Below, piece by piece: positions 18,589 through 52,353 of a DNA stretch of 64,000 bases. The notes below the pieces were generated by a model. That model made no database searches, had not been told where the DNA came from, and saw nothing but the letters and a program-made list of their open reading frames with translations. The DNA lies in NCBI GenBank assembly GCA_002842695.1, contig PHDT01000007.1, positions 124,001 through 188,000 on the forward strand, in the 5' to 3' direction. A program made the translations under genes and the position numbers. Within the stretch, counting starts at the first letter, position 1. Every line of letters begins with the position of its first letter. The stretch is from Bacteroidetes bacterium HGW-Bacteroidetes-10 (GTDB lineage: Bacteria > Bacteroidota > Bacteroidia > Bacteroidales > UBA932).

Positions 18589-18627
18589 CCAGGTGCCTGT
18601 GCCAGGTGCCTGCGCCAGGTGTCTGCA
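18589..18627. repeat. three tandem 13-bp repeats
   Basis: Three consecutive 13-mers, CCAGGTGCCTGTG, CCAGGTGCCTGCG and CCAGGTGTCTGCA, abut the left arm of the palindromic element at 18628 without a gap. They differ at one or two positions each. Confidence 0.85.
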
Positions 18628-18731
18628 CCTCAGAGGAAAAGTGTCAAATCATACTACATCAGTTGTTTACAATTTTTAGGTGTTTATTGTAAATTGCTAA
18701 TATTAAGTGATTTGACACTTTTCCTCTGAGG
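18628..18731. repeat. palindromic element B (24-bp perfect inverted repeats, 104 bp)
   Basis: Left arm 18628-18651 starts CCTCAGAGGAAAAGTGTC and is the perfect reverse complement of the right arm 18708-18731. The 56-base core is A/T-rich. It lacks coding sequence and resembles a MITE or long REP unit. It sits between the DUF4153-like gene and the 3' end of the ankyrin gene. Confidence 0.85.
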
Positions 18732-18754
18732 CATTTCTCTCCTGTAGGCGTACT

Positions 18755-21626: not shown

Positions 21627-21756
21627 AACTCTGCCAGAGTTTTTAGCAAGTTCTTAAGTATTAGGCTAGAACAAAATTTCAAGAAGGTGTTTTTTCGGCA
21701 TAAAAAAATTGCTATGTCTTGATATTCTGCAAGTTCGTAAAAACTCTGGCAGAGTT
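21627..21756. repeat. palindromic element C (19-bp perfect inverted repeats, 130 bp)
   Basis: Left arm AACTCTGCCAGAGTTTTTA (21627-21645) is the exact reverse complement of 21738-21756. The octamer GCAAGTTC occurs just inside both arms in direct orientation. CTCTGCCAGAG inside each arm is itself a short palindrome. The core is A/T-rich and has no gene. Confidence 0.85.
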
Positions 21757-21798: not shown

Positions 21799-21923
21799 AC
21801 ATGTCAGCCTAATTTGCAATGTGTTATATATCAATGTAATGCAATTGCTAATTCTAGATTTTTAATTACCTTCGTATTTGTAAATACCTTTAGGACAGAT
21901 AAATGTAAATTTGGCTGACATGT
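21799..21923. repeat. palindromic element D (20-bp inverted repeats, 125 bp)
   Basis: Left arm ACATGTCAGCCTAATTTGCA (21799-21818) and the right arm 21904-21923 are complementary except for two positions. Its length, 125 bases, equals that of the elements flanking the transposase at 51.3-52.3 kb, though the arms are different. The core is A/T-rich and non-coding. Confidence 0.8.
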
Positions 21924-51227: not shown

Positions 51228-51352
51228 CTGCGCCGCAATTTCTGTTAACGCGCAGAAAGACAGCAATATACAAATGAGAAACTTTGCAAAAGTAATAGTT
51301 TGTGTTTTATAAGTGATAGTAATACAATGAGTTAACAGAGATTGCGGCGCAG
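51228..51352. repeat. palindromic element A1 (22-bp inverted repeats, 125 bp)
   Basis: The arms 51228-51249 (beginning CTGCGCCGCAATTTCTGTT) and 51331-51352 are complementary with one mismatch. The 81-base core is A/T-rich and about 80% like that of element A2, in the same orientation. Its right arm supplies the last six codons and stop of the transposase gene. Confidence 0.9.
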
Positions 51353-52252
51353 AACACCTCTTACATACTCATAATTCTCGTTAAAAATTTGTGCAATTTG
51401 ATAATGTGTAGCACCTGTTGCTCGCTTTAATTTTACAATACACTGCTCAAGCTCCACTTTATCAAGTGCATACATATTTCTCCCGTCAAGTATCTTTTTC
51501 AGATGAGTCAGTATTTCATGAGTAGGCATCCGGGATCTTGATGTGAATGGTGCGCCTGCCGGAGCGGAGGTTTTTTTTATGGCTGATTCAGCCTTATGGC
51601 TTTTAATAAACCCGGCTATTGCCAAATCGAGCTCTTTTCGAGTGGTAAAATGACTGTATATAAATGAGGTGTCAATGTCAATGTATTTTCTGATACTGCA
51701 TTTTTGGTGATACATTAAATTATAGGAACTCCACTCATATTCCTCTGCCCGCGAACATATATCGGCATTTACCGGATTAGACAAAATGTAGAGGATGCTG
51801 TTCAGACGCCACTCATCGCTATACTTGCAAAAGCTTTTGAAAGGAGTTCTAAAAAGTTTGTCTGATAGAGAGTATTTCTTGTTGTACCAATATGAATATC
51901 CGTGTAAAAGGCGACGAACGAACTCGGTTACACAGGATGTTATAATTTGCAGGTGTATATGGTTGTCCATAATTACAAATGCTTCAATTATGGTGTCAAA
52001 TTGTTCGCTGACCTTTTTGCAACGCTTAAGAAATTCGATTTTGTCTTCATTATCTAGGAAGATAACCTTGCGGCAGTTGCCACGAATACATACATGCAGA
52101 TTCCCTGACTGAATGCGCCCCTGGCGCTGAGGTGCAGAATTGCTCTCACGTTTTGATTTTGTTTCTCTCGCTTCCATCTTTCTCACTATTTTTTCAAATG
52201 TAGGAAAAGTTTGGAACAAAGGAAAAATCTGCGCCGCAATTTCTGTTAACAT
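51332..52252 (-). CDS. REP-associated tyrosine transposase (RAYT, Y1/HUH fold)
   Basis: The protein is a TnpA_REP-type HUH nuclease. The metal site HUH is HIH at residues 98-100 (IMDNHIHLQI), and the probable nucleophile is Y119 in GYSYWYNKKY. LYILSNPVNADICSRAEEYEWSSY (about 144-167) is the RAYT signature, and the C-terminal ATGATHYQIAQIFNENYEYVRGVLRR looks like a DNA-binding helix-turn-helix. From ATG at 52252 the frame runs through arm A2 (LTEIAAQ) and ends in arm A1 (LRRNLC-stop). An internal start at 52177 (MEARETKS) is possible and would drop the arm-encoded residues. Flanked by two 125-bp palindromic units. Confidence 0.88.
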   Translation of the reverse strand: MLTEIAAQIFPLFQTFPTFEKIVRKMEARETKSKRESNSAPQRQGRIQSGNLHVCIRGNCRKVIFLDNEDKIEFLKRCKKVSEQFDTIIEAFVIMDNHIHLQIITSCVTEFVRRLLHGYSYWYNKKYSLSDKLFRTPFKSFCKYSDEWRLNSILYILSNPVNADICSRAEEYEWSSYNLMYHQKCSIRKYIDIDTSFIYSHFTTRKELDLAIAGFIKSHKAESAIKKTSAPAGAPFTSRSRMPTHEILTHLKKILDGRNMYALDKVELEQCIVKLKRATGATHYQIAQIFNENYEYVRGVLRRNLC

Positions 52253-52353
52253 TCAGAAAAAGAGCAATATACAAAACGCAAACTTTCAAAAAGCAAAAGT
52301 TTCTGTTTCATAAGTAATAGTAATACAATTAGTTAACAGAAATTGCGGCGCAG
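52229..52353. repeat. palindromic element A2 (22-bp perfect inverted repeats, 125 bp)
   Basis: Arms 52229-52250 and 52332-52353 are perfect reverse complements (CTGCGCCGCAATTTCTGTT...). It has the same length and orientation as A1, 1001 bases away start to start. Its core may hold the transposase promoter, but the best candidate (TATATTG) is a weak -7 match. Confidence 0.9.

Follow-up and report, generated by a model that had tools for sequence, protein, structure and literature searches.

Paired REPIN-like units and RAYT genes in a Bacteroidales genome

What are the two palindromic units that enclose a RAYT gene in the genome of Bacteroidetes bacterium HGW-Bacteroidetes-10, and how are they related to the gene between them? 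REPs and RAYTs are best described from proteobacteria. The window, i.e. the whole stretch of 64,000 nucleotides that was analysed, contains unit A1 at 51228..51352 (+), 3' (downstream) of the RAYT gene, and unit A2 at 52229..52353 (+), 5' (upstream) of the gene and in the same orientation as A1. Two direct units of 125 bp had been proposed by the first-pass annotation, and both were confirmed (86% identical to each other overall). Their 22-bp inverted arms, namely the left (51228..51249, +) and right (51331..51352, -) arms of A1 and the left (52229..52250, +) and right (52332..52353, -) arms of A2, were likewise found: the arm occurs four times in the window, three times exactly and once, in the A1 right arm, with one mismatch, and no match arose in 100 shuffles. 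With 24 nt trimmed off each end, the cores, described as about 80% alike, were 82% identical when compared directly and 53% when one was inverted. An Rfam search returned, besides two tRNAs, nothing but matches far under the gathering scores.

We searched the source genome (G000; 2.41 Mb in 42 contigs, 93.5% complete) by blast and scanned the stretches around the matches for arms. This gave 22 full copies (19 of 125 bp and three of 124 bp) and five half copies with one arm each, so the units do belong to a repeat family that is dispersed without the transposase, as had been expected. A covariance model built from the 22 copies recovered those 22, as it should, and nothing else above 51 bits among the 150 of 2653 candidates scored. 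When the copies of this family (family 1) are aligned, the arms are almost invariant and 19 columns per side drift; the exact centre is taken up by a 19-bp stem that closes a 5-nt loop. This second stem, common to the dispersed copies, had been overlooked in the first-pass annotation, and it is weak at the locus itself: in the region that corresponds to it (alignment columns 42-84), A1 (51269..51311) keeps 12 and A2 (52270..52312) 14 of the 19 standard pairs, which places them among the three copies with the weakest central stem. Among the other 20 copies, 19 keep 16-19 standard pairs and one keeps 14. Some of the stem pairs covary, e.g. columns 49 and 77 (C-G in 12, G-C in seven and A-U in one of the 22 copies), and the covariation score of the whole structure was 0.103 against 0.074 in shuffles, a value that none of 500 shuffles reached and that fell to 0.052 at most in slid registers. 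By the number of double-change pairs (134/500 shuffles) and of pair types (82/500), the family-1 stem was not beyond shuffles, so the evidence from covariation is mixed and depends on the measure.

The gene for the RAYT (Y1/HUH REP-associated tyrosine transposase) lies on the minus strand (51332..52177, -) and encodes 281 aa from the ATG at 52177, including the motifs MDNHIH and YILSNP and a helical C-terminal part. Its stop codon sits within the right arm of A1. The open frame as a whole spans 51332-52252, with a further ATG at 52252 on the edge of the A2 left arm; we judge the ATG at 52177 to be the likelier start. As the frame stays open into A2 (52177-52252), the A2 left arm would encode LTEIAAQ after the ATG at 52252.

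All 27 aligned RAYT sequences, the window protein included, matched Pfam Y1_Tnp and NCBIfam REP_Tyr_transpos, the window protein scoring 36 bits against the curated NCBIfam cut-off of 80, and the HUH histidines and the tyrosine were invariant in 27/27. The best fold match of the AlphaFold2 model (mean pLDDT 87) was the E. coli TnpA_REP structure 4er8_A, a complex with a REP hairpin (Z 16.1, rmsd 2.9, 150 aligned residues; Foldseek E 1.4e-6), ahead of the IS200-type transposases (Z 10.9 and lower). The predicted likeness covers residues 15-193 and the catalytic motifs, at 13% identity over the aligned part. Relative to TnpA_REP, the model has about 85 more C-terminal residues, predicted to be mostly helical. 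We discounted fold matches beyond Y1/HUH proteins, e.g. Thg1 and ribosomal S6 (Z <8), because these folds are widespread. Sequence searches of the PDB gave nothing with the single protein, only 4er8 at E 0.65 with a profile, and chance-level matches with the C-terminal part. Among the 27 sequences, no Pfam match to Bac_DnaA_C, HTH_23 or HTH_28 was found at E<=0.05; one matched HTH_58 at 0.019. The RAYTs are under purifying selection: dN/dS of RAYT pairs was 0.115, 0.09, 0.075 and 0.05 (the last with a dS of 2.7), while a near-identical pair gave 0.25 on very few changes and two further pairs were saturated.

The source genome holds four RAYT loci besides that of the window, one of them a split gene. 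All five lie between two units, and the arms at each locus differ from those at the other four. Units of families 2-5 are also dispersed in the genome, in copy numbers that are lower bounds (40 of 101 candidates scored). Three of these families are represented elsewhere in the window, by a family-4 unit at 21627..21756 (RAYT locus at G000:C29:9490, the split gene), a family-2 unit at 21799..21923 (G000:C29:18281) and a 106-bp family-5 unit at 18627..18732 (G000:C19:44320). At G000:C31:9952-10076 (L029) and G000:C31:9854-9987, a family-4 unit abuts half a family-1 unit without the left arm, an arrangement that looks as if one family had inserted into an arm of another.

Unit lengths were surveyed in 304 kb of G000 DNA, i.e. 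the window and stretches mostly fetched for bearing units, allowing 60-250 bp. Family 1 had the lengths given above (mean core identity between copies of equal length, 62%), family 2 had 11 units of 125 bp (53%), family 3 seven of 138 bp (78%), family 4 ten of 130 bp and two of 129 bp (58%), and family 5 eight of 106 bp (46%). Altogether, 55 of 60 units had the modal length of their family and five were one base shorter. A simple Poisson estimate, which assumes independent lineages and takes the flank indel rate from the sister-species comparison, makes so many modal lengths unlikely, with p 0.03 in family 3 and between 0.002 and 2e-5 in the other families. The cores of families 1 and 3 folded strongly beyond shuffles (mean z -4.9 and -7.5), whereas those of families 2, 4 and 5 did not (z -0.3, 0.4 and -0.2). 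Since the length of these three families is near-invariant all the same, length is kept without core pairing. The central stem of family 1 (and of family 3) is an added, conserved feature. A preference for helical phasing was also considered, because at least 62 units among the matches listed measured 123-125 bp (56) or 135-136 bp (six), with none between. We dropped it because the search model had been built on units of 124-125 bp and other lengths exist: the scan of RAYT loci in the genus gave, e.g., 102, 106, 111, 115, 117, 120, 122 and 146 bp.

These features were compared with parts of the published accounts of known systems. In one of them, a REPIN is a pair of REPs in inverted orientation whose spacer has a set length (PMC3116915). 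The first-pass annotation had set the 125-bp unit against classical REPs of 20-40 bases; this contrast fails, since an inverted pair of REPs at a set spacing is just such a REPIN (PMC3116915). With the REPIN-RAYT system (Bertels and Rainey 2011, PMC3116915), the system described here shares a pair of inverted arms held a set distance apart, copies outside genes, single arms left as remnants, a cognate RAYT beside units, co-evolution and possibly compensatory spacer changes, for which the evidence in family 1 is mixed. It differs from the published description in that the arms (19-23 nt as defined here, in units of 106-138 bp) lack GT[AG]G, which neither strand of the five arms contains, in that three of five families have no core hairpin and keep length rather than core pairing, and in that five RAYT loci and five families share one 2.4-Mb genome (PMC3116915). 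As far as the parts compared go, the Bacteroidales units and RAYTs behave as the REPINs of PMC3116915, PMC8049555 and PMC8266576. What they lack of the classical REPIN-RAYT marks is the GT[AG]G foot, and in this they resemble TIRtrons (PMC3733652).

We consider A1 and A2 to be probable members of a REPIN-type family, that is, small non-autonomous elements with two inverted REP-like arms a fixed distance apart that are recognised and, rarely, spread in trans by the RAYT. The enzyme would bind the arms of the single-stranded folded unit, or act on two bound sites on duplex DNA, cut the outer unit ends by its catalytic tyrosine (Tyr129 of the 280-residue translation used) and then move or copy the unit; the arm sequence would confer specificity, with the spacer as a ruler. 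Recognition by the RAYT, cutting, unit movement and any host function are all inferred.

The length data also allow for a stricter version, to which we give a rather low probability. According to this version, each unit is a 'ruler' with two sites, whose arms the RAYT would need at an exact distance while being indifferent to the core. Some families would have added a separately selected central stem, and the cell would keep the five pairs, most often where genes converge, as domesticated features of its chromosome and not as parasites. If true, this would be a spacing-read Y1 recognition that is absent from the REP literature surveyed.

Other known RAYT-like systems share part of these features. 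The TIRYT/TIRtron systems combine RAYT-like genes with flanking repeats that have no relation to GTAG REPs (Di Nocera and co-workers 2013, PMC3733652). Like the units described here, some TIRtron repeats are self-complementary and in some genomes dispersed as dimers. By contrast, GGGGWSAS, shared by the majority of published TIRs, is not in the family-1 arm, and a fixed spacer length, a central stem and families in Bacteroidales are features of our units that do not appear in the part of the TIRtron account compared (PMC3733652). Among the TnpA_Y1 subclasses (Quentin 2018, PMC6006769), the RAYT resembles 2.1, 2.2 and 2.6 in its downstream SS, and 2.1 in its long C-terminal extension and in an F replacing the conserved W. 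Its tyrosine motif YIL.NP agrees with that printed for 2.7 and differs from the printed 2.1 motifs. The spacing from HUH to Tyr is 57, against 82 in subclass 2.6, 88 in 2.4 and 110 in 2.3, and fits 2.1, but this spacing is common to most subclasses (PMC6006769). By printed motifs and spacing, none of the subclasses agrees in every mark, and the assignment is uncertain. According to the parts of that study considered, no REP-like sequences were found beside subclass 2.1 genes, whereas the Bacteroidetes genes of subclass 2.6 have atypical flanking structures with copies elsewhere (PMC6006769). The earlier claim that such units had not been described in Bacteroidota thus holds for this unit type within the literature searched, but not for flanking repeats in general, which are known for RAYT subclass 2.6, nor for MITEs, which occur in other Bacteroidota judging by paper titles. 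No paper on RAYT-linked doublets in Bacteroidales was among the literature matches listed, in a search that mostly covered papers outside subscription.

Comparison with the sister-species genome G010 showed that units are stable at shared sites. Ten of the 11 G010 unit sites are common to G000, with one of these matched by a single flank. In ten orthologous pairs, arms (427/440) and central stem (366/379) were 97% identical. Identity was lower in the hairpin loop (33/47) and came to 81-83% in the internal loops (308/380) and the flanks (1076/1291). The loops between arms and stem drift like the flanks. The higher likeness of arms and stem implies that they are either constrained or homogenised between copies; exchange between copies could thus also account for the conservation of the arms. 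Indels were not significantly rarer in the cores of orthologous copies (three in 806 sites) than in the flanks (17 in 2030 sites; p 0.22). At two more sites, G010 retains one arm or part of an arm only, the decay expected of REP singlets.

The position of the units relative to genes suggested that they might instead be host elements kept at gene ends, as bidirectional terminators, for mRNA 3' protection or for chromosome structuring, with the RAYT as a regulator or relic. Of 60 units, 51 lie between crude ORF calls, three inside one and six at contig or stretch edges. Units were found in 25/40 convergent intergenic regions versus 18/101 others (p 5e-7), a count that relies on crude ORF calls in DNA mostly chosen for holding units. 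In family 1 the distance from unit to stop codon is often 0-30 bp, or the arm itself supplies the codon. The conservation of arms and central stem in place fits this explanation as well. However, a terminator has no need of five arm families linked to five RAYT loci, families 2, 4 and 5 have no core hairpin, and the placement may merely reflect surviving insertions, so we regard this explanation as improbable. The flanks of units in L038, L031, L042 and others also carry another short G+C-rich repeat of the GCGCGCGCAGCGCTGCACC type, which means that several kinds of repeat share these gene-end islands. At one site (L143:1-250 / L043:1900-4017), the unit borders the 5' end of the neighbouring gene in G010 and its 3' end in G000, an arrangement that inversion of the gene, or misjoining of contigs at repeats, might produce.

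If the units depend on the RAYT, the two should occur together, and relatives were checked for both, as the first-pass annotation had proposed. Among the 25 genomes of the genus, G000 included, 24 had a unit match (E<=0.1), of which three (G012, G020 and G021) were weak (E 0.015-0.057), and 22 had a RAYT match (E<=1e-5). The three without a RAYT match were G002, with no unit match, G020, with its one weak unit match, and G010, with 11 full units. Copies without any RAYT had been named as evidence against a mobile family; G010 says nothing on this point, because the genome is 82% complete and the contig concerned breaks off within the first of the tRNA genes next to the RAYT locus. Across 119 genomes of the family, a RAYT (E<=1e-10) was found in 14/15 unit-positive (E<=1e-5, with a unit model tuned to family 1) versus 48/104 unit-negative genomes (Fisher p 5e-4). 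Eight of these 15 belong to the genus of the window and the seven others had weak matches (E 7e-8 to 9e-6); in the six of seven matched loci beyond the genus that were scanned for arms (all except L174), no strong palindrome was found at the match, nor did the scan of one outgroup RAYT locus give any.

We examined 33 loci from the 51 RAYT matches in the genus. At least one unit lay near the RAYT in 22 of them, on both sides in 14 (L092 and L104 atypical), and at 11 no such unit was found, also by a looser scan. Arm similarity correlated with RAYT identity (Spearman 0.47; 0/5000 permutations, a test that relatedness inflates) over 23 loci with units, i.e. the 22 and L049. In G017, two RAYTs are flanked on both sides by short hairpins that resemble the central stem, with outer arms weak or absent (L089:1387-1430 and 2395-2438; L104:1294-1380 and 2281-2391). 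A further doublet-like family, with an arm starting CCTAGTAGGATTCGTGCAA, was seen in G010 (L139:1980-2110); none was among the G000 matches listed (40 of 101 candidates scored). Against the reading as a REPIN-type family stand the absence of GT[AG]G, the 11 of 33 RAYT loci without a unit and the G010 units without a detected RAYT. The same holds for the lack of any observed transposition or clean empty site, the non-significant indel comparison, the two covariation measures that stayed within shuffles and the weakness of the unit matches beyond the genus.

The RAYT of the window is found at the same locus, between two tRNA genes and a MarC-like membrane protein gene, in six of 25 genus genomes (G000, G004, G007, G009, G011 and G023), and the RAYTs there are 37-51% identical to that of the window. 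In ten other genomes of the genus, 2 to 251 bp separate the tRNA match from the gene match, too little to accommodate a RAYT. G004, G007, G009 and G023 have arms at the locus that are unlike those in the window, and in G011 no unit was found there. The first-pass annotation had spoken of a MITE carried by a RAYT. Of this description, the small dispersed units stand, but they resemble REP doublets, and 'carried' does not fit a RAYT that stays at an old locus common to several species while the units are scattered; with its locus fixed, the RAYT would act in trans. The gene looks domesticated and itself no longer mobile.

The same data bear on the possibility that unit, RAYT and unit form a composite self-moving element similar to IS200/IS605, with the solo units as its remnants. 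In 11 of 13 loci the two units that flank a RAYT have the same orientation, like the ends of IS200-type elements; six of these cases are clear, and one locus has a clearly inverted pair. Of 14 loci with a 3' unit, 13 have the start of that unit in the range from 19 bp within the RAYT match to 60 bp past it. However, each family has one RAYT locus, against 22 full family-1 units in G000, and a locus common to six species with diverged RAYTs indicates persistence, not movement, which makes a composite element very unlikely.

No transposition event was seen in the genomes compared. The joined flanks of eight of ten prepared G000 sites were searched in ten genomes; four of these genomes gave a match, and no clean empty site was found. 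At two sites G010 lacks the unit, but the right flanks are unrelated, and at one the unit is absent with flanks not aligning up to the junction. One G010 unit is missing at the corresponding place in G000, where the flanks have again diverged.

That the units are ordinary MITEs of a DDE transposase, lying next to RAYTs by coincidence, we hardly believe. The 22-bp terminal inverted repeats and the small size would suit such elements, and a 4-bp repeat (one mismatch allowed) flanks five of the 22 copies versus 1.8 expected (21/2000 shuffles), an excess at one of nine lengths tried and uncorrected. The remaining eight lengths between 2 and 10 bp showed no excess in the 22 copies, so that there is no clear target-site duplication of the kind seen with a DDE-type MITE, and all five RAYT loci of G000 lie between cognate units. 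An invertible promoter, in which a site-specific recombinase cuts at inverted repeats on either side of a promoter core, would match the A/T-rich core between inverted arms and the string TAnnTTTG on the minus strand of A1 (which we take to be the Bacteroidota -7 motif), but was set aside as extremely unlikely because the core is little conserved apart from the central stem and the units lie mostly between convergent genes rather than upstream of genes.

Read as a REPIN-type family, the units and RAYTs described here look like a new version of the known REPIN-RAYT system, with five RAYT loci in a single Bacteroidales genome and, at each of them, a separate unit family without the GT[AG]G foot. 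The 2011 REPIN paper, in the part compared, names length and hairpin together as critical features of the spacer (PMC3116915); near-invariant spacing over drifting cores, even without a core hairpin, separates the two. The unit sites and the RAYT locus common to sister species form a natural series on how a Y1 enzyme reads its repeat, which also bears on what sets the distance between the arms and why cells retain RAYT-unit pairs.
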